Origin: Promethearchaeota archaeon
GTDB taxonomy: Archaea; Asgardarchaeota; Lokiarchaeia; Sigyniarchaeales; SOKP01
Reading direction: 5' to 3'
DNA length: 64,000 nt
NCBI GenBank assembly: GCA_019058425.1
Contig: JAHPYZ010000004.1
Span: 35,393 to 99,392 of the forward strand
Shown: positions 3,523 to 60,306 of the stretch, piece after piece
How positions within the stretch are numbered: position 1 is the first letter of the stretch
Layout: every line of letters starts with the position of its first letter
Position numbers and translations under genes: made by a program
The notes under the pieces: generated by a model
Seen by the model: only the letters and a program-made list of their open reading frames with translations
What the model was told of the DNA's origin: nothing
The model's database searches: none

Positions 3523-4443
3523 ATGAATATTTATCTTAATCTCATAAGTGTAATCCATAAGTATAAATTATTTATAGGAGGAAAATTTAAAGCTAAGAAA
3601 ATGTGGTCGATAAAGAACAAAATAATTTTAAGCATTTGTTTAATTTTTACAATTTCTATGGGAGGTCTTCTCTTTTATCTTTTAGACCCAAACATTTCAA
3701 GCACCTCTATAAGTTATAATCGTCCATCTGATAATCCGTATCATATAAATAGTTATCCATATTGTTTAGAAGATGATTTTCTAATGAGTGGAATTGATTT
3801 AGATATTCGATACGATGCAAATTTGTCATTTGTTAATCATAATCAAGGAGGAATGACTGGATATTTCTTATATTTTCAGAATAATTTTCATTATCAATCA
3901 AATTCAAGATATTTAAGAATTAAACATAATTTAGCAATTACTTCTTTGATCGAAAAAACGGTATATACCAAAGAAATTGACACTTGGATAGAACAACTTC
4001 ATGAAGAAGAATGGAGAAATCCAGAAGAATTCAATATATTTACAAATATGGATTATTCTCTTCCATCTGGCTATATTTACGACAACTTGGTTATTGAACA
4101 AAATTGTATCGAAGAGAATCATAAGTGGTTAGATTTGGGAATATTTCTCATAGGTCCTTTTAAACAAGTAGTGGGTTATAATCTTGCATCGATTTCTATT
4201 ATTAATACTAATGCGAAAATGGCATATTATGGGTTAGAGGAAGTGGTGAATAATACAAAAACTTTGATGAAAGTAAAGGAATTTATTATACGTGATTATA
4301 TATCTTGGGAAGTTTATCAGTGCCGACTATTTGGATGGAAACTTATTACATCTAAAACTTATTATCTAGGAAATTATATGCTAGAAGCATTTAATGGAAT
4401 TGAAAGATCTATTGGGATTGATTTTGTCCCCTTAAATCTATAA
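3523..4443 (+). CDS. Uncharacterised protein with N-terminal TM/signal anchor; true start may be 3601
   Basis: Long ORF; hydrophobic IILSICLIFTISMGGLLFYLL near the N-terminus, more typical if translation begins at MWSIKNK (3601). Confidence 0.6.
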   Translation: MNIYLNLISVIHKYKLFIGGKFKAKKMWSIKNKIILSICLIFTISMGGLLFYLLDPNISSTSISYNRPSDNPYHINSYPYCLEDDFLMSGIDLDIRYDANLSFVNHNQGGMTGYFLYFQNNFHYQSNSRYLRIKHNLAITSLIEKTVYTKEIDTWIEQLHEEEWRNPEEFNIFTNMDYSLPSGYIYDNLVIEQNCIEENHKWLDLGIFLIGPFKQVVGYNLASISIINTNAKMAYYGLEEVVNNTKTLMKVKEFIIRDYISWEVYQCRLFGWKLITSKTYYLGNYMLEAFNGIERSIGIDFVPLNL

Positions 4444-4515
4444 TCTTTATTTTTTTAATTTGGACTAGCAAAAAAATTTGTTAATAATTTCTAAATATAT
4501 TAGTTCCTTTGAGGA

Positions 4516-5454
4516 TTATTTAAAAAAAACAGCTAAGTTTCTGGGAAGAACCTCATAATAATTTTCTAAATCATATTCCACTATTTTCTCTTTAGTTGCT
4601 ATAGGGAGTTCTTCTAAACTTTCTCCTTTTAATATTAAACTTAATTCTGCTTCACTAAATTCAGGTCCAAGTTCAGTCCAATTTATAACCTTTTTATTAG
4701 CAGGGCATACTTTTTGACAATGAAGGCACCCAACTAAACAATTATGCCATGCAGGATCGAACCATTCTGGAAAGGTCATTTCTGGTGGTAATTCATTGTG
4801 GTATGTAATACAACGTTCGGCTCGCAAAAGGAAACGATCAGTTGGAATTGCTTGCGTTGGACACTTACGTGTACATGCGGAGCATTCCTTACATAAGTCC
4901 ATCATTTTTAATTCATACCAATTATCCTCCTCAGTTGGAAAATCTGAATATAATGTTGTTAAGCGATGAAAACTACCCATTCCCGGTACATAAGTAATAT
5001 TATTTCTACCATATTCAGCTAATCCACTACGCACTGCTATAGTTTTCTGTGGAATTCGAGCATATACAGCTTTATATCCCATTGGTTTTAATATTTCATT
5101 AACTAACTCCGTTATTTGATTAACAATATTAAGCCCGTACAAATAGGTTGGAGGTATAAGCAATGACTTTTTTTCATTCTTCCAGTGAAAAACAGCTTCA
5201 AATTGAGGCACTGGAACTGAAATTATAAAAAGAGACCTGATTTGAGGAAGATCCACATCTGTTTTGAATTCAAAAAATGATTGATAATTATCATAAAATT
5301 CGGGATCAAAACGATTTTGCGTATGATGCTTGGTAATATCATGACGTATGTCCGGAATGTGTTCAGCAGACAAAATTTTGCCTTTATAACCTTTTTCTTC
5401 TAAAATTTTATAAAAATCTTTTATTACATCATCATTATTATTCATAAATATCAC
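4516..5454 (-). CDS. QueG-like 4Fe-4S double-cluster protein (epoxyqueuosine reductase-related)
   Basis: Cys motifs CKECSACTRKCPTQAI and CLVGCLHCQKVCPANKK; 'KTIAVRSGLAEYGRNNITYVPGMGSFHRLTTLYSDFP' resembles the QueG core. Confidence 0.7.
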   Translation of the reverse strand: MIFMNNNDDVIKDFYKILEEKGYKGKILSAEHIPDIRHDITKHHTQNRFDPEFYDNYQSFFEFKTDVDLPQIRSLFIISVPVPQFEAVFHWKNEKKSLLIPPTYLYGLNIVNQITELVNEILKPMGYKAVYARIPQKTIAVRSGLAEYGRNNITYVPGMGSFHRLTTLYSDFPTEEDNWYELKMMDLCKECSACTRKCPTQAIPTDRFLLRAERCITYHNELPPEMTFPEWFDPAWHNCLVGCLHCQKVCPANKKVINWTELGPEFSEAELSLILKGESLEELPIATKEKIVEYDLENYYEVLPRNLAVFFK

Positions 5455-6708: not shown

Positions 6709-7212
6709 TCAAGGAATATATGTTTGAACCATTAATGTACTAGAAAAAATATTGTTAGCACTATCACTTCCAAATATACTGATTGTTGCATTATGAGCTC
6801 CGGCTGTAACTGTATCCAGTGAAAGTTGACATGAAATGGGTACTTCAATACTGTCAGCAGTGGTTCGAATAACCCACCAAGGATAGGTAGGACCACTTAA
6901 TCTAACACCATCTAAAACAAAATTGAATTGTATATATGAATTTGCTCCAGCAGCAACTTCAGCCCTAGTGTTAAAGTGAAAATAAATCGATTCTCCAGAA
7001 CTTACAGTAAAGTCTATTGTTAGTTGATCAACGATTATAATTGTAGATATAGGATTAGTAGTTGTTTCACCATAATGAAAATCATACCAAGTGTTTTTAA
7101 CACCAGATCCTCCCGCTGCAGGGGCAGCAAAAATCAATTGATACACACCTATCCCCAAAGCGCCTAATGCGATTAATAAAGCTAAAACCGCCAAACCTGA
7201 AGATTTTGCCAT
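6709..7212 (-). CDS. Small secreted or membrane-anchored protein
   Basis: N-terminal TM GLAVLALLIALGALGIGVYQLIFA followed by a beta-rich ectodomain. Confidence 0.6.
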   Translation of the reverse strand: MAKSSGLAVLALLIALGALGIGVYQLIFAAPAAGGSGVKNTWYDFHYGETTTNPISTIIIVDQLTIDFTVSSGESIYFHFNTRAEVAAGANSYIQFNFVLDGVRLSGPTYPWWVIRTTADSIEVPISCQLSLDTVTAGAHNATISIFGSDSANNIFSSTLMVQTYIP

Positions 7213-7350
7213 AATTTTATACCTCTAATTTTAATATATTTCAACTTAGATTTCTTTTTTGAAGATTTATTAATTAATTAATTATATAGAAATACTTCAA
7301 TAAAAAAATAGTATAAAATCCTTAGAGTTAATTTACATGCTAAATTGTTC

Positions 7351-8514
7351 TCACTTTATTGTATTGCTTGAACAAATTGCTGAATCTGGTGGAACTTCTT
7401 TTTGAAGCATTTTGAATGCCCTCCTAGAAGACGAGAAAGTTTTAGCATTATACTTTTTCACTAGTTCTACAAGTTCTTCATCAAATACCCGTACAAATAC
7501 TCTTATAAATGGATATCGTAAATGAAGTTTCGCCGTCAGATAGAGTAATTCATCAAATTCTGAATCCCGTTTCCAACATATGAATACCTGCGAAACACTT
7601 TCCATATTTACATGATCCCGCAAATCGCTTAAAAAGCGAGCAAATTCATTTATGATGTGGAGTCTTTCATTTACTACAAATTCGATACCATCATGTTCAT
7701 CATCAAAAAGATAAACTTCACGTTCAGGTTGTGTAGAGATATGATAAGCAATTCGATGAGTGAGACTGTCGCGACCTATCACAATAGCATTTCCAGTCTT
7801 ATCTGCTGTCCATTTTTCAATACTTTCCATTGTCCATTTTGATGTGGAAAAAGGATGTGCATTTAATGGGTGTGCTTTGAGATATTCTTGCACGTGGTCT
7901 TCAAAAGCTCGGACATAAATTGGAACTTTTGGATTCATTTTACGTATTTTTTCCGTACAAATTATAGCAACTCTGACATCTCCGACAATAATAAAAACTT
8001 CCTTCGCTTGTTCAATGTTTGCAAGTTTAAGATTAGTTGTTTCAGTAGCATCCCCTACTACAATAGGTTGACCTGCATTAATAAGATCTTCCACTGCTTC
8101 TTCATCATCTTCAATAACACAGAAAGGTCTTTTGCATTCGAGACAGGATTCAATTATTCTTTTAGTCAGATGATGAAATCCAATGATTACTGTATGATTT
8201 TTCTTGTGGCTGGCAAGAATTCTGCTAGTTATAATTGGATTATACTTTTCGAGTAATTCTCCAATGATAAAACCAAAAACAATGACTTCCAATAATATCG
8301 GCCATAATAAAGCATATAAATTCGCAAAATCACCTGCATCAATAGGAGAACGCACAGTTAACGAGTATAGGAAAATTATCCCTAGATTTTGACCAGATTC
8401 TGTAATGAGAAAGAAAAGGAAACCACTCAACCAGAATAAAAAGAGAAATACAAACGCTAACTTGTATTGTTTAATCTTAAGTCGGAATTCTATGAAAAAG
8501 TTTACTAATTTCAT
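7351..8514 (-). CDS. TrkA-N/RCK-domain membrane protein (potassium-channel-like, no canonical GYG filter)
   Basis: N-terminal TM helices, then two Rossmann/RCK-like segments (HTVIIGFHHLTKRIIESC..., GNAIVIGRDSLTHRIAYHI...). Confidence 0.7.
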   Translation of the reverse strand: MKLVNFFIEFRLKIKQYKLAFVFLFLFWLSGFLFFLITESGQNLGIIFLYSLTVRSPIDAGDFANLYALLWPILLEVIVFGFIIGELLEKYNPIITSRILASHKKNHTVIIGFHHLTKRIIESCLECKRPFCVIEDDEEAVEDLINAGQPIVVGDATETTNLKLANIEQAKEVFIIVGDVRVAIICTEKIRKMNPKVPIYVRAFEDHVQEYLKAHPLNAHPFSTSKWTMESIEKWTADKTGNAIVIGRDSLTHRIAYHISTQPEREVYLFDDEHDGIEFVVNERLHIINEFARFLSDLRDHVNMESVSQVFICWKRDSEFDELLYLTAKLHLRYPFIRVFVRVFDEELVELVKKYNAKTFSSSRRAFKMLQKEVPPDSAICSSNTIK

Positions 8515-8593
8515 AACTTAAGATAAAACACTCTTGTATAAAAAAGATTTGAATTGATAATATATTAATGTTGGAAAACTCATTGTGAAAGAG

Positions 8594-13548: not shown

Positions 13549-13733
13549 TCTCTATTCATATAATAATAAAAACCAAGTTACTAAATATTAATACCATATA
13601 TATTAGGTTTATCGTTTATTTTGGTTTAAAGAATTATTTTATAAAAAAGCTAAATAATGAATTAGTTTTTTCTTAGTCCGTTTCTTATTAAATACCCTTT
13701 AACCCATAAAGAAATTTAATGAAATTAGCATAA

Positions 13734-14993
13734 AAATTCAGAAATACCAAGTTTGAACATTTAGACGTACTTTGCTCAATTTCAAAAAAACTCTATAATC
13801 CGGCAAATTGGTATATACGACAAGATTTTTTTCATTTAGAGAATTGGCTTCGTTATCAAGATTTAAATTTCATGATGAAAAGTTCTGACCATTATAAATT
13901 ATTAAAAGCTCAAACTTCTCAACAGATTCTTAAAATACTAGATAAAAACTGGAAAAGTTTCTTCAATACGATAAAAGAATGGAAAAAAAGTTGAAAAAAA
14001 TTCAATGGAAGACCAAAACCACCTAAATATAAGAAAGCCTGTAATAATTTTCTTATATTTACCAACCAGAATAGCAAGATTAAAAAGAATGTAATTACTC
14101 TTTCAATGTCTCAATTTTTTAAAAAAAAATTTCCTAAATTTGAAAATCCAATAGAAATATCTATACCACCCTATAAAAATAAAAATTTTGAGTGCTATCA
14201 ACAAATAAGGATCTTACCGAGAAAAAACTTTTATGAAATCGAAATTGTATATGAAAAAGACATAAAGAAATCAAAATTAGATACAAAAAGATATTTATCA
14301 ATCGATTTCGGATTGAATAATTTAATAACTACGGTAGAGAACAGATATTCAAAGCCACTTATCATTTCAGGGAGAATCTTAAAGTCTATTAATAGGCAGT
14401 GGAATAAAAGAAAAGCAAGACTCTATTCTATCAAAGACAAACAGAAGTTAAAGTGGATTGTTAGACTCGAAAGGATTGCTATAAAGAGAAACTCAGTTGT
14501 AAAGGATTATTTACATAAGACTGCTCAATTTATTGTTGGTTATTGCTTAAAAAATCAAATAGGTAATATTTGTGTAGGTGAACTAAAAAATATAAAACAC
14601 AAGCTCAGAATGGGCAAACGAAATAACCAAAATTTCGTGAATGTCCCCATTCAAACACTTAAACAAATGATCACCTATAAAGCTCAGCTTGTAGGAATGA
14701 AAGTACATATGGTTGATGAGTCCTACACATCAAAATGTAGCTCATTAGATTTAGAAACTATCCAAAAACATCAAAAATATGTTGGGAAACGGATAAAACG
14801 AGGATTATTTAGAGGTTCGAATTACATTCTCAATGCAGACGTAAATGGAGCACTAAATATTCTCAGAAAAGTAGTCGGAGATGGTTTTATTCAAAATCTA
14901 TCCGATAGAGGCTACTGGTTTCAGCCTGTGCGAATAAGGGATTTATTCCAAACTTCACATGAACAATATTTACTAAAATCTGTTAATGTTTAA
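13734..14993 (+). pseudogene. tnpB: TnpB (IS200/IS605-type OrfB nuclease), 5'-degraded with an in-frame TGA at 13992
   Basis: Same-frame coding from 13734 (KFRNTKFEHLDVLCSISKKLYNPANWYIRQDF...), TGA at 13992-13994, then GRPKPPKYKK... and ORF 14106..14993. RuvC-like motifs SIDFGLNNL, VGELKNIKHK, NADVNGALNILRKV; 'YTSKCSSLDLE...KRIKRGLFRGS' typical of one TnpB subgroup. Confidence 0.85.
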
Positions 14994-50406: not shown

Positions 50407-51015
50407 ATGAATTTATTTCAAATATTAGCAGTTTGTGGAATGCTTAGTCCAATCATTTATACGGCTATGTGGATTATATGTGGAAAGCTAGATTCGAATT
50501 ATAATCATATTCGAGATGATATTAGTTCGCTGTTTGCAGTAGGTGCACCTAACAGACGCTTAGCTCAGTCATTTGTCATTATAGAGAGTGTGTTATTGTT
50601 CATATTTTTTATTGGATTACACGCGGGGATAAATGACGGGGGTGGTTCAATACTTGGCCCTGTCTTTCTTATAATAAGTTCAATTTTAGGAATACTCATT
50701 GCTCTATTTTTCCCTCTTGATGAGGGAGGTGAATTCACAACTTATAAAGGAAAAGGACATATAGCATTTGTAGTTCTAATGGGGATATTTGCGATTGCCG
50801 GGATGGTGGCACTGTGGATTCGTTTGCAGTTGGTATCAGGATGGAATAGTTTTGCCCTATATTCACTCATATCCGCTATAATCTCATTAATAGGCGTTAT
50901 CATATCGATTATATTTGCTGCAGGTAAATATATAGGTATAATAGAAAGAATTATGGTTACTCCTTATCAACTCTTCTACTTTATTCTTAGTCTTATGGTA
51001 TTTCTAAATAATTAA
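50407..51015 (+). CDS. DUF998-like membrane protein
   Basis: LAVCGMLSPIIYTAMWIICGKLDSNYNHIRDDISSLFAVGAPNRRLAQ. Confidence 0.8.
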   Translation: MNLFQILAVCGMLSPIIYTAMWIICGKLDSNYNHIRDDISSLFAVGAPNRRLAQSFVIIESVLLFIFFIGLHAGINDGGGSILGPVFLIISSILGILIALFFPLDEGGEFTTYKGKGHIAFVVLMGIFAIAGMVALWIRLQLVSGWNSFALYSLISAIISLIGVIISIIFAAGKYIGIIERIMVTPYQLFYFILSLMVFLNN

Positions 51016-51059
51016 ATTCATTAAATTTTTATTTTTAGAGAACACATATTTCAATTATC

Positions 51060-52253
51060 ATGATTAATCAAAATTTTGATGAATGGATACGATCTTTATA
51101 TTTTCCTCATAATAATATCTTTATTTTGATAATTTTATCATTTGTAATATTAATTTCTGTTGGTTTATTCGCAGTCATTCTAATACACAACCAAAAGTTG
51201 AACAACAAATTAAAAGTGGTTCTGTTATCAATTTCATTCATCTTTGGGGGCATAATTTTAGGTGGTGTTCCCAATGTGGTATTAGTAATTCAACATATTT
51301 TTGCTGATATTCTTTTTCCAAATCGCTTAGTATCCCTGTTGATTAGAATTTCGATTTTTCTAGGACTTACTTTAGTTTTTGGTAGAATTTTTTGTGGTTA
51401 TGTATGCCCTTTAGGAGCCATGCAAGAAATGGCTTCTATGATACGTTTCAAACCAAAATTTGATTATGACAGGAAATTTTGGAAAAAGAAAAACTATCTT
51501 CGCTGGGGATTCTTTATATTTTATGCCATAGCTTCAATGATTTGGGGATTAGAAGCAACATTATTTATGAATCCTATTAATGGGTTTCTTATATATTGGA
51601 CACCATTAAATGTGGTGATTTTTATCGCTTTCATTATATTTTTATTGACCATGTTAATCAGTATCTTCATATATCGTCCCTATTGTAGATTTTCCTGTCC
51701 ATTCGGTGCCTTAGCATTTTTATTTGGTAAGGTTAGCCCTTTGAAGATAAGAAGAACTCCTAATTGTATTGAATGTGGAATATGTGAAAAAATCTGTCCT
51801 ACTTTAGAAGGTTTTGATATCAGCGAGAAAGGGGAATGTTATTATTGCTATCGTTGTATAGACTTTTGTACCAATGAGATGTTTATCGACACTGGAAAAA
51901 TTGCTCAAATAAATAGACTTCTTACTACATATTCATTAGATTTTGATTCAATATCAAAAGATAAATATTTTGATCAGATTATCAAGAGTATCATTAGATT
52001 ACTAATACCCTATAAACGTTCACGTGCTTTAGAACAATTTAATGATGCCCTTAACAATAAAAAAGATATGTCTCAAGAAGCAATTCAAAATATCGTAATA
52101 AGATTAAGAACAATATTTCCAAAGGAGATAGAACAATTCAACCTTTCAAACTATAAAAATTGGATCATAGAAAATGAGTCTAGATGGAAGGAAAAAATTG
52201 AACCAATACATCTAGATAAATTATTCTATGGTTTGAAAAAGGAAACTCAATGA
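51060..52253 (+). CDS. NapH/CcoG-like polytopic 4Fe-4S protein with cytosolic C-terminal extension
   Basis: RIFCGYVCPLGAMQEM, YRPYCRFSCPFGAL, CIECGICEKICPT...CYYCYRCIDFC; multiple TMs. Confidence 0.85.
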   Translation: MINQNFDEWIRSLYFPHNNIFILIILSFVILISVGLFAVILIHNQKLNNKLKVVLLSISFIFGGIILGGVPNVVLVIQHIFADILFPNRLVSLLIRISIFLGLTLVFGRIFCGYVCPLGAMQEMASMIRFKPKFDYDRKFWKKKNYLRWGFFIFYAIASMIWGLEATLFMNPINGFLIYWTPLNVVIFIAFIIFLLTMLISIFIYRPYCRFSCPFGALAFLFGKVSPLKIRRTPNCIECGICEKICPTLEGFDISEKGECYYCYRCIDFCTNEMFIDTGKIAQINRLLTTYSLDFDSISKDKYFDQIIKSIIRLLIPYKRSRALEQFNDALNNKKDMSQEAIQNIVIRLRTIFPKEIEQFNLSNYKNWIIENESRWKEKIEPIHLDKLFYGLKKETQ

Positions 52254-52381: not shown

Positions 52382-55300
52382 ATGTATATGGAGAAAAAAA
52401 ACCAAAAATTAAATCGAGTTATATTTCTATGTACAATTTCAATATTGATTCTGATTGTTAGTGGTATTTTTACAAACCAATCCAACTTGGGTTTAATAGA
52501 TCATGATAATAAAATAGAAGATGAAAATTATAAAGAAGAATCACCGGAACCACTATTAAGCCAACTTCCTGAAGATGCAGGAGGATATATTTCCTCAAAT
52601 ACCGCTAATTTTAAAACTCTTGAAAACGCATCAAGTACAATTTTGAGAAGGGATTATTTGGCTAATGAAAGTAGTTATTTTAACATTACTACACCTCAAT
52701 CTTGGAATACTTCTTCAATGCAATTTGAAATTGAACCTTATTCTAAAAAGCAAATAATTGCAGATCCCAATTTTAACTCAGAATATGAAGGTGGAACTCA
52801 ATATTGGGACACTGAAGAAGAACAGAGCGGATTTGGTTTTTTTACTCAATATGATTTAGAAAATTATCCTTATGGAATAACACATATATATAATTTAAAA
52901 TCAAGAGATAGTCCAGCATTTTATCAAGGTGACCATGCTTATTGGACGCAGGAAGTTGAAAATTTGAATAATCAAAATTTAAATATTAAAAAAGGGAAAA
53001 TAATACAAGAAAAAGATGAACAAGTTAGAGATTTTGATGATTTTGAAACCGATCCATCCTTTTATAAAGATTTAGATACCCCTTATGGTGGTGATTATGC
53101 CCCAATCTGGGATGTGGTTGATCTTTTTTATGAAGAATCTATCACAAGCCTTAGAGTATTAATTGACCCATATCCTTCTATCGTCGGCGGGAATCCTTCA
53201 GCTGCTTGGTGGTATTACATCATTGCTCCATATGAAATTGATTATGCTCAAATAAAAATTACATGGAGTATTGACGAAATCTCTGAATTTGAGTCAGAAG
53301 ATGAATACGAGGTAATCGCGAGAATAAATAATAAATATATTGATGGAAGGAATCCGATTGCTGAGAGTGGAGAAGACATACCATTTAATGGTTCCAGTAC
53401 AGCTTTAATGGTATATGATAATCCAGAGGTTTCTGGTCCTATTAGTCATGGTACAGTTTCAAGAACATATAATATAACAGACTTAATTAATGGGTTAGTG
53501 GGAATAAATAAGTTTGATTTTGGAGTGTGGGCTAAAAACCCTAGTCATCTTGGAGATGTAGACTTAATTTTAGCAAATTTTGAATCAATAGAGATTATGT
53601 TTAATACAACGACTAAATATGAGGTTGCTAATTTAGGTTATAGATATAAATTAGTTGATGCTGATGCATCTGGAAGCAATCCCTTTTTATTAAGTAATGA
53701 TGCATCTCTCTTCTTATATCTAAGAGATATGGATACAGATCATGAAGAATTAATTAGAGTACTTCCATTCTCAATTACAACGATAAGCTACAAAGATTTT
53801 AGTGATACTCCGTGGATTAACATGAATTTTAGTATTTCTGATAAATACCAAGAGTTTTTAAAAGCTGATAGACTAGAGTTTAAAATTGGAGTATATTTTG
53901 AAAATAATTTCTATGAAAGGACTAATTATTATCATTTTATCGATAATGTTACATTCAGAATAAACTATAACCAATCTGTAATAGATACTCAATTAGAAAT
54001 TAAAGTAGATAATTCCCCATGGGAACTTGTTAGCAATAGTATCCATACAATAAATACATCTAATTGGGTTATTGGAGAACCTCATAGTTTTCAATTTACT
54101 ACATTTAACCTTACCTATATCAATAGATTATATCTTAATATAAAATCTGATTCAAATCTTTATCATATCAATGATTATGGTGCTAAAGCAAGCTATTCGA
54201 TAAGTGGAGCAAATGCACTACAGGGAATATGGAATATTACCTATGATAATATGATATCATATAATTATTTATTATGGGAGAACTATAGCTCTTATTTTAA
54301 TTTATCATCATATTTAATATCAATCATAGATATGCCGGCTTTCGATTTTGAGGGTTCTAACAGTTCGAATTGGGACATATTCACTGCTATTACCCCTAAT
54401 TTTAGAAATTATTCTGCTAATCTCATTAGGTATAATTATTCTGGTTCTTCAAATTATCAAAGTGCATTAATATCAAATGCTTTTCAAGCAGGAAATTGGA
54501 CAATTCAAGGTTATCAACCCAATTATATAACCAATTGCCTTTTTAATACTACAAACAGTTATTTAGGCTACCCTTTGTACTACACAGATGAGATTGTGCA
54601 ATATAATTTCACTGTATTAGAATCTACTAAAGGGAACTATTCTGTTGGTTTATACAATAGTAATGGTGACCTTATGAGTGAATTTCCAAAATATTACTCC
54701 TCTAATGGATTGAATATTATTGGAACAATAGATCTTGCAGAAAAATATACAGTTGGTCATTACTACCTGTACATAAAATGGAATGACACAGCTTCAAATC
54801 CTACAAGTACATTGCGGTTTGGTTCAATAATTAAATCTTTTGTTATTTTTAACAATACATATGCTCAATTTACAAAGGAAACTCCACAAGTTTCATCTGG
54901 AGAAATTGCAGAATTTGCTTTAAACTACACTACATATAAAGGATGGGGTATACCAAATGCTACCATTATAGTGTATGAAAATTCAACTGGAACTGTAAAT
55001 TATTGGGGAGTAGCATGGTCAGGAGCGTATCAAGTTGGAGACATCACATATTTAGGAAATGGAAATTATTCTATTCCACTTATAACAGATCTAGCACCAA
55101 ATGGAACTTACCCCTTATTTTTCTATATTTCAAATTTTCCTAATAAGCCCCACATTCTATCTACAACTTTAAGAGTAATTGCTACAAATTTAATTGAATT
55201 TGACATTACATCAGGTGCTTATTTGGATGTCTCCGAGTGGGTTATTAATTCTGATAATGTTCCCTATGTAAATGATACAGTAAATAGTGTTATTAGAGTA

Positions 55301-58162
55301 AATTTAACAGAGTCTGGAACACCAATAACAGGAGGTTCAGTTGTGGGTCATATAGGAGATTCAGAGAACTTTTTTGAAGCTCAGGAAATTGGAGGTGGAT
55401 TCTATGATATAACCTTAGACACTACGGGTTTCAACGCATCACAAAAGTATGGAAATAGTTACATTGAAAATGAAACGCTAGAAATCAGATGTAGTGCAGA
55501 TGGGTACAATCTTATCAAGGAATATGTCACAATTTTTATAGATAAAATTCCAACAACAATTGAACTCCAAAATATTGATAGTGTTTATGCAGAAGGATCT
55601 ATTACAGCAATCTCAACATTTATGAATCAGATTGATCCTCCCAATCCTAAACCAAACAAAAATGGGAACTTAAATTATTATATTTATAATGGTACGACCC
55701 AAAAACTAAACGGGTCATTAGAGTATCTCTTAAATGGTGTTTATCAAAAAAGTTTCTCTTTGTCAGGTCTATTTGCTGGAGATTATAGTATATATATTAA
55801 TGGAACAGCTTTTAACTGTGAAAGCAGTCAGAGTAATATTATAAATTTTACTATATTATCACAAGAAACTACAAATCTAGATATAACCATTCCAGAAACG
55901 GTAAGAATTTCAAAAGAGTTCCAGATAAAAACAACTTTAAGTTATGCTATAAATGGTACACCAATTCAAAGCCAAGCAGTGAATCTAAATATCTCGATTG
56001 GTCAAACTGAAAATTTTCTTGTTACTACTATGACTGATTCTCTAGGAATTAGTACTTATGATTATATAATTTCCTCCCAATATAAAGACCAGAACATGAC
56101 AATTCAAGCTATTTATGAAGGTCAAAAAAAAATAGCTGCCTCTAGCAATAGTATTACTAAAATAATATATGGTAAATTACCTATCCAAATGGAAATATAT
56201 GATTTTCCAAGTGTTGCAAGAGTTGGATATTCTGCAAGGTATGGATTAAGGATCAATATAAGTGATAGTGGAGAAACTCTCCAAAACAAAGTAGTTCTCT
56301 TTTCAGCTTATTATAATGATGATCTTACTAGTCCTATTATCACATTTCTACTCTATACGGATATTAATGGTCAATGCGAATATACAATAACAGAAATTGA
56401 GGATAGAAAGGCCAATATTACTGTCTATTTCGAATACCTTGGATCATCCACTTTATCCTATAATATAACATCAAGGACTGATTTAATCGAACCAAAATGG
56501 AGTTCTAATTTTACTGTTCAACCTTTACCAAGTATAATTCGCTATGGGCAAACCATCGATTTTGATATGTTATTTTCCTGTGAAAATACATCTATTTCCT
56601 TACTAAATCTACCAGTTCTTTTTATGTTTAAGTATGAAGGGACAATAGAGAGTTATAACACAATAATATCAATAAATAATACGTTGCTTTATTCATATCA
56701 AATAGCTGATTCTTTTCATGGTAATTTAAACTGCTCTATTATTTTCGAAGGGACAAACAGAATAGAAGGAGGTTTACTTAATTATAGTTTAGTTATTAAC
56801 CCAAAATCAATAGTACAGCTTGCATTTATAGGAACTCTCAGAACCCAGTATATGCATGGTTCCTACTCCTTTCACGTATCTGTTGAAAATGAATTAGGAG
56901 AGCCTTTAGATGGGCTATTAATATTATTCCAAATTTTAAGAAATAACGGAGAAGAACTCGCTAATTATACTGCTATTTGCGAGGATGGACTTGCTGTAGG
57001 AGCCCTAGATCTCCCGTTAGGAAATAATTATAGGATTCAAGTCCGATTTTTTGCTGAAAGCTATTATGAAGGTGCAATTATAACTTCAGAGAGAATACGC
57101 GTAGTAAATGAATTTATTATTTTCTTAGATTATTTACCATACATACTGTTAGCTCTAGGTATTACAGCTGCTGCTTCATTTACCGTATATCGGGTCGTTA
57201 TCGTCCCTAGAAGACGAAGGAGAATAGAATCATTAAAAATGCTTTATCAAAAACTATCTGATGTTGAAAATCTTCAGTACTTAATTGTTTTGACAAAAGA
57301 TGGGGGTTTACCTTGTTATAGTAAAAGCCTAGCAGATGTCCCAATTGATGAAACGCTTGTTTCTGGATTTTTAAGTGCCATATCTAGTTTTGGTACAGAG
57401 ATAGGAAAAAAAATTCAGGAAGGAGAAGGAGGTCTGGAAGAATTATCATACCGACAATTTAAGATAATAATCAATGAAGGGAAATTTATAAGAGTCGCAC
57501 TACTTCTTTTAAAACGTCCTAGTGAGTCCTTGAAAGTAAAGTTAAGAAACTTTAATAAAACGTTCGAAGAAGTATACGAGAGTGAACTAAAAAGTTTCTC
57601 CGGAGCTGTGTTTGATGATATTGCTGTTACTAAGTTGATTGAAGATGTTTTTGAGGCGGATCTTTTATATCCTCATCAAGTTATTGAAACTAAAGTAGAC
57701 AACTATATGAAATCTGCTACATCAAACAATATTGATAAAAAAATTATCATTATTGCTCGAGGAGAAGAGTTTGAATCAAATTTCTACTTAAGAGATTTAA
57801 TTAATCATCTTAAAACTAGAGGGATAGAGGAAATCAAATCGTTTGACAGCATACAGAAAATGAAACAAAATAAAATTGTGTTCGCTATTAACCCAAGAAC
57901 TAATTATTTAATTGAAGACTTTAAAAGGTATATAAAACACATGGACTCTGATGATAGAAACGTACTTTTCGCAATTTTTAATGGTAATAACGACATAATG
58001 GGTATTAGAAAGTATTTGAAAAAAGCTAATCTCATTATACCTGCAGATATTGACCGAAATATTGAAAAATTAAAAAGATTAAAATTAATTGATGAAGTAA
58101 ATAGGATTAATGATAATGGTAGTGCAGTTGCTACTCTCTTAAAATTAATTCCAGATTTATAA
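52382..58162 (+). CDS. Giant single-pass surface protein: signal/TM, ~1550-aa Ig-like ectodomain, TM, basic stop-transfer, cytosolic longin/roadblock-like domain plus extra C-terminal domain
   Basis: N-terminal VIFLCTISILILIVSGIF; many N-x-S/T and Ig-like beta segments; TM YLPYILLALGITAAASFTVYRVVIV then PRRRRR; tail LQYLIVLTKDGGLPCYSKSLADVPIDETLVSGFLSAISSFGTEI...FNKTFEEVYESELKSFSGAV. Confidence 0.85.
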   Translation: MYMEKKNQKLNRVIFLCTISILILIVSGIFTNQSNLGLIDHDNKIEDENYKEESPEPLLSQLPEDAGGYISSNTANFKTLENASSTILRRDYLANESSYFNITTPQSWNTSSMQFEIEPYSKKQIIADPNFNSEYEGGTQYWDTEEEQSGFGFFTQYDLENYPYGITHIYNLKSRDSPAFYQGDHAYWTQEVENLNNQNLNIKKGKIIQEKDEQVRDFDDFETDPSFYKDLDTPYGGDYAPIWDVVDLFYEESITSLRVLIDPYPSIVGGNPSAAWWYYIIAPYEIDYAQIKITWSIDEISEFESEDEYEVIARINNKYIDGRNPIAESGEDIPFNGSSTALMVYDNPEVSGPISHGTVSRTYNITDLINGLVGINKFDFGVWAKNPSHLGDVDLILANFESIEIMFNTTTKYEVANLGYRYKLVDADASGSNPFLLSNDASLFLYLRDMDTDHEELIRVLPFSITTISYKDFSDTPWINMNFSISDKYQEFLKADRLEFKIGVYFENNFYERTNYYHFIDNVTFRINYNQSVIDTQLEIKVDNSPWELVSNSIHTINTSNWVIGEPHSFQFTTFNLTYINRLYLNIKSDSNLYHINDYGAKASYSISGANALQGIWNITYDNMISYNYLLWENYSSYFNLSSYLISIIDMPAFDFEGSNSSNWDIFTAITPNFRNYSANLIRYNYSGSSNYQSALISNAFQAGNWTIQGYQPNYITNCLFNTTNSYLGYPLYYTDEIVQYNFTVLESTKGNYSVGLYNSNGDLMSEFPKYYSSNGLNIIGTIDLAEKYTVGHYYLYIKWNDTASNPTSTLRFGSIIKSFVIFNNTYAQFTKETPQVSSGEIAEFALNYTTYKGWGIPNATIIVYENSTGTVNYWGVAWSGAYQVGDITYLGNGNYSIPLITDLAPNGTYPLFFYISNFPNKPHILSTTLRVIATNLIEFDITSGAYLDVSEWVINSDNVPYVNDTVNSVIRVNLTESGTPITGGSVVGHIGDSENFFEAQEIGGGFYDITLDTTGFNASQKYGNSYIENETLEIRCSADGYNLIKEYVTIFIDKIPTTIELQNIDSVYAEGSITAISTFMNQIDPPNPKPNKNGNLNYYIYNGTTQKLNGSLEYLLNGVYQKSFSLSGLFAGDYSIYINGTAFNCESSQSNIINFTILSQETTNLDITIPETVRISKEFQIKTTLSYAINGTPIQSQAVNLNISIGQTENFLVTTMTDSLGISTYDYIISSQYKDQNMTIQAIYEGQKKIAASSNSITKIIYGKLPIQMEIYDFPSVARVGYSARYGLRINISDSGETLQNKVVLFSAYYNDDLTSPIITFLLYTDINGQCEYTITEIEDRKANITVYFEYLGSSTLSYNITSRTDLIEPKWSSNFTVQPLPSIIRYGQTIDFDMLFSCENTSISLLNLPVLFMFKYEGTIESYNTIISINNTLLYSYQIADSFHGNLNCSIIFEGTNRIEGGLLNYSLVINPKSIVQLAFIGTLRTQYMHGSYSFHVSVENELGEPLDGLLILFQILRNNGEELANYTAICEDGLAVGALDLPLGNNYRIQVRFFAESYYEGAIITSERIRVVNEFIIFLDYLPYILLALGITAAASFTVYRVVIVPRRRRRIESLKMLYQKLSDVENLQYLIVLTKDGGLPCYSKSLADVPIDETLVSGFLSAISSFGTEIGKKIQEGEGGLEELSYRQFKIIINEGKFIRVALLLLKRPSESLKVKLRNFNKTFEEVYESELKSFSGAVFDDIAVTKLIEDVFEADLLYPHQVIETKVDNYMKSATSNNIDKKIIIIARGEEFESNFYLRDLINHLKTRGIEEIKSFDSIQKMKQNKIVFAINPRTNYLIEDFKRYIKHMDSDDRNVLFAIFNGNNDIMGIRKYLKKANLIIPADIDRNIEKLKRLKLIDEVNRINDNGSAVATLLKLIPDL

Positions 58163-58182: not shown

Positions 58183-59700
58183 TTAAATTTTTGTTCTTTT
58201 AAAAGATTTCCTTTCACGTTTACATATAATTTGGGCTAAATCTCTTCCGCTTAAAAATGCGGTGGGTACTCCACCTCCAGGTTGAACCCACTGACCAATC
58301 ATATAGAAATTTTGGAGCTTTGGTAGTTCTTTTTTAATAGGTTTATTTTCAAATATGTTCTCATTTGCCCAACCTTGTATAGACCCCTTCCAGTTATGAG
58401 TAAATCTATGATAACTCACAGGAGTTGCTACATCTACCATGTCAATATTTCGCTTTAAACCATCTAAGTGAATATCCACTAATTCAATAATTTTTTCGGC
58501 GATTACAGTTTTAATTTCTCTGTATTTTTCTCTATTCTCTGATCTCAATTCTGACCAAAATTCAAAATTTTTTGTTTCTAAGGGAATATTAATAAACGTT
58601 TTACCTTTCGGTGCTAAAGTAGGGTCATAATTGAATATTCTTACTTTTAAATAATTGTAAATAGAGCCATCTTGTAATGAAAGTGGATGTTCTAGATTAA
58701 TAATCAGAGTCCCTGGTTCATTTTCAAAAGTTTTATTCACGCCTAAAGATATATTTATAAGGGAAGGATTTAGTTCCTTTGTTTTGTAGATGTCAAGTAG
58801 TTTTTTGTATACATATCTACCGTTTAATAGATGAAAAATTGTTGTCCTTCCATCCATTGCACTGATGACAATATCTGCATTGTATGTTTCACCATTTTCT
58901 AAGGTTATTCCGCATGCTTTATCTAATTTGGGACTACCATTAGGAATTGTATTAATTTTTGAAACTTTAGAATTATAACGAATTTTACCACATAATTCCA
59001 AATATTTTCTTTCAAATAATTTACTAAATTTTAAGGATCCCCCGATTGGATAGCCTGAACGTCTTAAGTCCATTTCGGACAATACAAACATTTCAAATAG
59101 TATAGGAGATATAAAGCTTTTTGTAGCTTCGCTTAAAAAAGGATTCTTGAATTGGTTAGAAAATTCTTCTGCGGACATATTAAGCCATTTTTTCATAACA
59201 CCTAACATTGGGGTAAACTTGATCATTTTGATGTAATCAAGAACATTAAAAAATTCTCTTGGTTTTTTCAGCATAACTTCATAGGCTTTAGTGTCCTGAA
59301 GTTTGCGAACTCCATTAATGAAATCCTCAATTACAGTGCTATCTTCAGGGGATATTTCTTTCATATAATTTTCTAATCGATTTAAATTAGAATATTCAAA
59401 AAATCTTCTATTGTGTTTAGTTATAATGACGAATTTTGTATCCGAATCATAGAAATCTATTTTATCCATCTCGATTAACTCATTCCAAAGATGATAAAGA
59501 GGATGACTTGGTGAGGATCCTAATAAACCATGTATACAGCCATCAATGGTATATCCTTTCCTTTTCCAAGAGGTAATCAATCCTCCTGGTAAATTGTGGG
59601 CTTCAAAAATTTCAGTGTCAAACCCATTCATTTGTAAATAACAGCCTGCGGATAACCCCGCCAAACCTGCTCCAATTATAATAACTTTCTTCTTACTCAT
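58183..59700 (-). CDS. Phytoene desaturase/CrtI-like NAD(P)/FAD oxidoreductase
   Basis: KKVIIIGAGLAGLSAGCYLQMNGFDTEIFEAHNLPGGLITSWKRKGYTIDGCIHGLLG; C-terminal QWVQPGGGVPTAFLSGRDLAQIICK. Confidence 0.92.
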   Translation of the reverse strand: MSKKKVIIIGAGLAGLSAGCYLQMNGFDTEIFEAHNLPGGLITSWKRKGYTIDGCIHGLLGSSPSHPLYHLWNELIEMDKIDFYDSDTKFVIITKHNRRFFEYSNLNRLENYMKEISPEDSTVIEDFINGVRKLQDTKAYEVMLKKPREFFNVLDYIKMIKFTPMLGVMKKWLNMSAEEFSNQFKNPFLSEATKSFISPILFEMFVLSEMDLRRSGYPIGGSLKFSKLFERKYLELCGKIRYNSKVSKINTIPNGSPKLDKACGITLENGETYNADIVISAMDGRTTIFHLLNGRYVYKKLLDIYKTKELNPSLINISLGVNKTFENEPGTLIINLEHPLSLQDGSIYNYLKVRIFNYDPTLAPKGKTFINIPLETKNFEFWSELRSENREKYREIKTVIAEKIIELVDIHLDGLKRNIDMVDVATPVSYHRFTHNWKGSIQGWANENIFENKPIKKELPKLQNFYMIGQWVQPGGGVPTAFLSGRDLAQIICKRERKSFKRTKI

Positions 59701-60306
59701 TTAATCATTACCATTTTGTTTAATTACATTATCAATAATAGTATCCAAAAAAGTATCACGTTGCTTCTTATTATAGAAATCTAAATCTATGAATTTTTTC
59801 ATAATATCAGCTCTTAAAAAAGCAACTTGAGACGAGGATATGATGGTATGGGCAATTATTCTTATCTCCTGTTCTGTTTTAGTATTTTGATAAATTTCAC
59901 GGAAAATCATCATGTATTTTTCAATCGATCTCATAGCATTATCATCTTCAGCTGGATTCAAAAAATCATGGATAATTGAAACTCTTCCAAATATAGGATT
60001 ACTATCAATCAAATCACCTGTTCCTTTTAGCATGATCTTAAGTTTCTCAATCGGTTTTTGGGTCATCTTTTCATAAATCGGATCCCATTGGTCAATAATG
60101 GCATTTGTATCTTTCCTAACTGCTTCATTTATTAGATTTTCTTTTGTTCTAAAATGATAATTTATTAATCCTACTCCTTTTATACCTGCTCTTTTAACGA
60201 TTTTCCGAATTGATATTTTGCTAATATCACCAATTTCCTTCATTAATTCGATGGTAGCATCAATAATTTTTTGTTTTGTATTTTCTACATCTACATTTTT
60301 TATCAT
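59701..60306 (-). CDS. TetR family regulator
   Basis: KQKIIDATIELMKEIGDISKISIRKIVKRAGIKGVGLINYHFRTKENLINEAV. Confidence 0.9.
   Translation of the reverse strand: MIKNVDVENTKQKIIDATIELMKEIGDISKISIRKIVKRAGIKGVGLINYHFRTKENLINEAVRKDTNAIIDQWDPIYEKMTQKPIEKLKIMLKGTGDLIDSNPIFGRVSIIHDFLNPAEDDNAMRSIEKYMMIFREIYQNTKTEQEIRIIAHTIISSSQVAFLRADIMKKFIDLDFYNKKQRDTFLDTIIDNVIKQNGND

Follow-up and report, generated by a model that had tools for sequence, protein, structure and literature searches.

In eukaryotes, the longin fold serves the control of small GTPases and vesicle coats, and longin platforms act on GTPases in TRAPP, Mon1-Ccz1, SRX-SR-beta and GATOR1/FLCN. For the Asgard archaea, the accessible sections of Tran et al. 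2024 (PMC10933270) describe Lokiarchaeal longins as well as longin-GTPase and roadblock-GTPase fusions and indicate that prenylation-type membrane anchors appear to be absent for Asgard Ras-like GTPases, while counts of Asgard longin proteins are given in the accessible part of Dey et al. 2016 (PMC4917890). Multidomain ESCRT-related Asgard proteins that combine Vps28-C, adaptin appendage and longin domains with Ig-like, TPR and HTH/PCI parts are patchily distributed and lineage-variable according to the accessible sections of PMC10936438. On Lokiarchaeal cells, numerous surface proteins of unidentified nature are seen, whereas an ordered S-layer is absent (PMC9834061).

Here, we analysed a gene encoding a giant surface protein in a 64,000-nucleotide stretch of DNA from a Promethearchaeota archaeon (assembly GCA_019058425.1, contig JAHPYZ010000004.1, positions 35,393 to 99,392), hereafter referred to as the window. 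We propose, with a probability of roughly 55%, that its product serves this Asgard archaeon as a type I surface receptor, the longin tail of which acts as a GTPase platform. The features of the locus are:

52382..58162, + strand: uninterrupted open reading frame, 1926 aa, type I surface protein with a cytosolic longin and winged-helix-like tail
52409..52471, + strand: hydrophobic core of the signal sequence, residues 10-30, preceded by a K/R-rich N terminus (hydropathy)
52679..54661, + strand: N-terminal head of the ectodomain, residues 100-760, tandem beta-sandwich/jelly-roll-like (AlphaFold2, all-beta, low confidence)
54749..57109, + strand: putative stalk of Ig-like repeats, residues 790-1576 (weak Pfam matches to Big_1 and MG4)
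57110..57205, + strand: single transmembrane segment, residues ~1577-1608 (hydropathy), kept in all orthologues
57206..57223, + strand: PRRRRR stop-transfer, residues 1609-1614 (sequence)
57272..57652, + strand: longin domain, residues 1631-1757 (AlphaFold2, Foldseek, hhalign to Asgard longins)
57356..57391, + strand: conserved motif LVSGFLSAISSF of helix alpha-1, residues 1659-1670 (alignment of 37 tails)
57686..57886, + strand: winged-helix-like domain 1, residues 1769-1835 (AlphaFold2 secondary structure), aligned in receptor paralogues
57947..58147, + strand: winged-helix-like domain 2, residues 1856-1922 (AlphaFold2, pLDDT about 90-96), orthologues only
50407-52253, + strand, and 58183-60306, - strand: neighbouring genes, i.e. 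a DUF998 membrane protein, a Fer4_5 ferredoxin-type membrane protein, an FAD enzyme (amine-oxidase/phytoene-desaturase-like) and a TetR regulator

The protein has the layout of a type I single-pass receptor, with a signal sequence, a large ectodomain, one transmembrane segment and a positive-inside cytosolic tail. Its ectodomain contains 50 sequons compared to 23.8 ± 4.0 in composition shuffles, and the 318-aa tail contains 2. Within 15 residues of the transmembrane segment, one K/R precedes it and six follow, and hydropathy revealed no hydrophobic segment beyond residue 1608. We regard the cytosolic orientation of the tail as close to certain. The preliminary description had read the protein as a ~1550-aa sequon-rich ectodomain joined by one transmembrane segment and PRRRRR to a cytosolic tail; hydropathy, sequon contrast and K/R bias agree with this reading, and the coordinates given for the reading frame and the membrane segment (~57110-57205 by hydropathy) were right. 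For the ‘Ig-like’ character of the ectodomain, the evidence consists of Pfam matches below the gathering thresholds (Big_1 at residues 1191-1250, E 0.0016; MG4 at residues 1495-1555, E 0.019), and the head was modelled as low-confidence beta-sandwiches (mean pLDDT 66.7), so that this part of the earlier reading is weakly supported. Foldseek matches of the head were weak and included PNGase, MAM-Ig, the Eph ligand-binding domain, CBM and other generic beta-rich structures; as these are generic and superpose poorly with low TM-scores, a ligand of the ectodomain cannot be named from them.

Nine orthologues of 1919-2061 aa, alignable to the window protein over near full length, share its layout of signal sequence, ectodomain, transmembrane segment and basic stop, with 40-66 sequons in their ectodomains versus shuffled means of 13-28, and 0-2 in their tails. 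Within the order, full-length orthologues are spread over several genera and more than one family, and the basic juxtamembrane stretch is present in 10 of 10 of them as well as in receptors of other Asgard families. A contig scan able to detect close relatives alone yielded two orthologues in Candidatus Lokiarchaeota MAGs, with tail identities of 75% and 71%, the genome studied here being that of a Lokiarchaeon as well. In the orthologue alignment, mean column conservation is 0.40-0.54 for the larger part of the ectodomain, and its maximum of 0.73 falls on the longin core (residues 1651-1725); hence, the most conserved part of the protein is cytosolic. Gene neighbours of the window gene are conserved only between two near-identical relatives.

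What does this tail look like? Structure prediction and structural search yielded a longin fold with longins at the top of the Foldseek list. The AlphaFold2 model (37 homologues, pLDDT 85) starts with a juxtamembrane helix, continues in the order beta-beta-alpha-beta-beta-beta-alpha-alpha (E24-31 E37-42 H50-71 E78-83 E86-92 E96-102 H108-130 H139-150 in tail numbering), which is the longin topology, and ends in two winged-helix-like helical units with short strands. The best PDB matches were AP sigma (4p6z), TRAPP (7b6d), COPI (9qpq), zeta-COP and Sec22b (1ifq), with MglB and LAMTOR roadblocks ranking lower; as the query spans three domains, TM-scores stayed modest, between roughly 0.4 and 0.67 depending on the target, and at such scores coat longins cannot be told from GEF longins. 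Within helix alpha-1, tail residues S54, G55, F56 and A59 are invariant across 37 tails, and a motif resembling that of alpha-1 also occurs in GTPase-fused and 7TM-fused longins, a conservation that may hint at dimerisation, at contacts with a small GTPase or coat partner, or at both. The last ~180 aa, previously taken for an alpha/beta domain, turned out to be mostly helical in the model; the two units are termed winged-helix-like from AlphaFold2 secondary structure, and Pfam lent no support to winged helices in the window tail or the 37 tails. Receptor paralogues match tail residues 1-230 only and thus lack the second unit. A longin SNARE was considered as identity of the tail and rejected, since winged-helix-like units follow the longin and there is no hydrophobic segment after residue 1608.

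At the level of sequence, the relation of the tail to recognised longins is transitive. Pfam gave no match to the window tail, Pfam longin models matched none of the 37 tails, and a PDB sequence search with the tail profile alone returned no longin; the gap between tail and PDB was bridged via stand-alone and GTPase-fused longins of the genome that harbours the window (the home genome). A profile built from membrane-anchored tails alone finds two such proteins there, the GTPase-fused L113 (E 1.6e-10), the C-terminal part of which is an Arf/Roc GTPase (Pfam, E 1e-14 to 3e-15), and the stand-alone 132-aa longin L084 (E 4e-8). The latter scores above the curated cut-off of Pfam Fuz_longin_1 (28 bits vs 26.1), and a curated longin model is matched by the tail relatives L084 and C80:23388. 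Profile-profile alignment of receptor tails to stand-alone and GTPase-fused Asgard longins gave 98.6% (hhalign, E 5e-16), and the top PDB matches of the Asgard longin profile were MON1, SRX, Trs23, AP-1 mu, AP-2 sigma, VAMP7 and delta-COP, with E-values of 0.005-0.05 that are each marginal, yet consistently point to longins. We are therefore highly confident that the tail starts with a longin domain.

The same domain recurs throughout the home genome, in which its profile has 52 matches. These include eight single-pass longin receptors of 769-1926 aa, at least six proteins with about 5-7 transmembrane segments plus longin, and three with 10-12 segments plus longin, one of which weakly matches MFS. 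Also among them are TPR-longins, soluble proteins made of longin, winged helix and TPR, GTPase-longin fusions and stand-alone longins. In a quick, midpoint-drawn tree with long branches, membrane-linked longins are split from soluble and GTPase-linked ones by a branch with an SH-aLRT support of 96. Across the phylum, the tail family was detected in 137 of 148 Asgard genomes and in 45 of 50 genera (profile, E <= 1e-10), and in families f8, f15, f18 and f23, all outside the home class, we verified single-pass receptors whose longin follows directly on a basic juxtamembrane stop.

Several further architectures were observed along the way. A C-terminal cytosolic longin combined with about 5-7 transmembrane segments, a GPCR-like layout, is encoded at L107:6598-7935 (+), L102:12003-13328 (+) and 13554-14876 (+), L119:2975-4117 (+) and 4125-5249 (+), and L085:4724-5857 (+). 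Proteins with 10-12 segments and a C-terminal longin are found at L112:5233-6879 (+) and 6927-8567 (+), one of which weakly matches MFS_1 and Sybindin, and at L111:5506-7716 (-). Tandem arrays of two to three longin receptors of ~760 aa occur at L132:5423-12557 (-) and also at L133, L138, L140, L144 and L146; these arrays, seen in several genomes, suggest local expansion of receptor types. Soluble proteins with longin, winged-helix and TPR/MIT-like parts (L102:4195-5574 (-), L105:4966-6336 (+); one weak MIT match) are close kin of the receptor tails and are candidate cytosolic partners.

The home genome contains ~93 Ras-like GTPase matches, and a survey of longin neighbourhoods for small GTPases gave no significant excess: 8 of 51 home-genome longin genes had a GTPase within 3 kb (4.8 expected, p = 0.10) and 10 of 51 within 5 kb (7.2 expected, p = 0.18). 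For 66 membrane-longin genes of other genomes, 13 GTPases were counted in 495 kb of flanking sequence versus 9.9 expected from the density in the home genome. None is present among the neighbours of the window gene. This agrees with the remark, in the accessible text of PMC10933270, that operons shared by GTPases and longins are not the rule in MK-D1. A fixed sensor-GTPase linkage of the conservon kind was thus dismissed, given a GTPase proximity not above expectation and isolated operon-like pairs only. As proximity is not significant, the GTPase role is inferred from fold, family and fusions; docking of a GTPase by the tail is plausible in view of the usual role of the fold and of the homologous longins fused to GTPases in the home genome.

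Operon-like receptor-GTPase neighbours occur in three genomes. At L109:5905-16700 (-), a 753-aa longin receptor stands with two small GTPases and three TPR-longins of 644-663 aa; at L149, a Ras-like GTPase lies 122 nt upstream of a longin receptor; and at L129, where the receptor is orthologous to the window protein, a RagA-like GTPase lies 196 nt upstream of it, the family of this GTPase not tracking the presence of the receptor. At L119, a Ras-like GTPase is followed by two 7TM-longins on the same strand. As side observations, L171:4235-13333 (+) encodes a longin receptor of 3033 aa, 867 nt upstream of which a gene for a Ras-like GTPase lies in the same orientation, and L109:4697-5908 (+) is a 403-aa frame convergent with the receptor, without Pfam match, that gives the impression of an arrestin/Vps26-type beta-sandwich.

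How might a giant surface protein make use of a longin at its inner end? We envisage that the large, glycosylated and beta-rich ectodomain would sense or bind a partner cell, matrix or polymer outside, while the longin, joined to it by one transmembrane helix, would provide a membrane-fixed docking platform in the cytosol. Binding outside would gather receptors, the longins of which could pair via their conserved alpha-1 face, among themselves or with longins of the stand-alone kind, and the resulting surface might bind, recruit or regulate one of the many Ras/Arf/Rag-like GTPases. The pair of winged helices may add a protein-binding surface of the ESCRT-II/PCI-like type or a dimerisation surface. 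Given its spread across nearly all Asgard archaea, the longin-tail receptor design may represent a receptor-to-GTPase link that predates the eukaryotes. More tentatively, and in our view rather less probably than the receptor reading itself, there could be a phylum-wide, ancestor-like receptor-to-GTPase layer, in which one longin module on giant single-pass receptors, 7TM proteins, MFS-like transporters and GTPases controlled switches of the Ras/Arf/Rag type at the plasma membrane, at a time when cells had no internal compartments yet. Longin-tailed surface proteins throughout the phylum would supply Asgard GTPase platforms with input from outside and with a fixed place at the membrane; the cell surface would then be the likely site at which control of GTPases by longins began. 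The function of Asgard GTPases becomes testable via such receptors, which are also added candidates for the surface densities seen on Lokiarchaeal cells.

Longins in coats and SNAREs also work without acting on a GTPase, which counts against the GTPase mechanism. The strongest alternative, albeit an unlikely one, is a cargo or adhesion receptor tied to coat or ESCRT-like machinery instead of a GTPase switch, with longin and winged helices as a built-in adaptor, similar to sigma/zeta subunits, that sorts the protein into vesicles, protrusions or contact sites. The coat longins AP sigma and COPI indeed head the structural matches of the tail, but coat and GEF longins are inseparable at the Foldseek scores obtained. 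Asgard proteins combining longin with adaptin appendage, Ig-like, HTH/PCI and Vps28-C parts are reported as ESCRT-linked in the accessible sections of PMC10936438, and cells of Ca. L. ossiferum bear protrusions as well as numerous surface proteins without regular order (PMC9834061); however, Pfam detected no ESCRT, Vps28-C or adaptin domain in the tail, and none was recognised beside the gene.

The two winged-helix-like units at the C terminus of the AlphaFold2 model, together with a soluble longin protein of the home genome with weak TrmB/HTH matches (L092), could also indicate a membrane-anchored one-component regulator, in which the winged helices bind DNA, the longin is a PAS-like dimerisation module and the output is transcription. 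We consider this improbable: Pfam HTH families are absent from the window tail and one of 37 tails is marginal (wHTH-PRTase_assc, E 0.097), paralogues lack the second winged helix, soluble relatives carry TPR or MIT-like extensions suggesting protein binding, and winged helices commonly bind protein in ESCRT-II-like and PCI proteins. To about the same low degree, we credit a structural surface glycoprotein or adhesin, i.e. a substitute for an S-layer whose tail merely anchors it to cytoskeleton or cortex. A repetitive, beta-rich and sequon-rich ectodomain of 1550 aa would suit that role, as would Asgard envelopes with large surface densities in place of an ordered S-layer (PMC9834061), but conservation is highest in the cytosolic longin, and the same tail on 7TM proteins, MFS-like proteins with 10-12 segments and GTPases speaks for a signalling or adaptor module and not for a passive anchor. 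Finally, the preliminary description had left open a roadblock/LC7 (MglB-type) identity of the tail domain, which we regard as hardly tenable, for while MglB and LAMTOR chains are among its Foldseek matches and the AlphaFold2 model has a helix ahead of the first strand, a trait shared with roadblocks, that helix runs on from the transmembrane segment, the two C-terminal helices are longin-like, none of the 18 places at which PF03259 (Robl_LC7) matches the home genome lies in the window gene, and tails align to the genome's own roadblocks, which as a control find MglB and LAMTOR2 in the PDB, with 29% only (hhalign, E 6e-4), so that with strong longin and weak roadblock matches the longin half of the earlier claim stands.

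The reading as a longin-tailed receptor serving as GTPase platform invites comparison with known systems. In fold and by remote sequence similarity, the tail resembles the eukaryotic GEF/GAP longin platforms (TRAPP Trs23/Bet5, Mon1-Ccz1, FUZ-INTU, NPRL2/FLCN) and the SRP-receptor subunit SRX, which, unlike the window protein, are cytosolic subunits recruited to membranes. To our knowledge, no eukaryotic longin platform forms the tail of a single-pass surface receptor. Longin SNAREs (VAMP7, Sec22b, Ykt6) are likewise membrane-anchored with a cytosolic longin, but possess an N-terminal longin, a SNARE coil and a C-terminal anchor without ectodomain, whereas the order is reversed and a SNARE coil is absent in the window protein. 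We found no description of longin-tailed surface receptors in the literature, mainly among openly accessible papers. With the published Asgard longins and longin-GTPase fusions, the window protein shares domain family and lineage, and one profile finds both stand-alone and GTPase-fused forms; in contrast to these, for which the accessible sections of PMC10933270 and PMC4917890 mention no transmembrane or receptor form, the longin here lies in the cytosolic portion of a giant surface protein with type I topology. The multidomain ESCRT-related Asgard proteins similarly combine a longin with Ig-like and HTH/PCI-type parts; judged by the accessible sections of PMC10936438, some overlap is possible, but neither Vps28-C nor appendage was found in our protein, and its Ig-like part is extracellular, across the membrane. 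In actinobacterial conservons (CvnA sensor, CvnB roadblock, CvnC, CvnD GTPase), the components are separate proteins encoded in one operon, with a roadblock in place of a longin and a histidine-kinase-like sensor (PMC13343842, PMC8510531). What the Asgard receptor would share with them, and with MglA/MglB, is the way of working: a membrane sensor, a roadblock/longin-type platform and a Ras-like GTPase.
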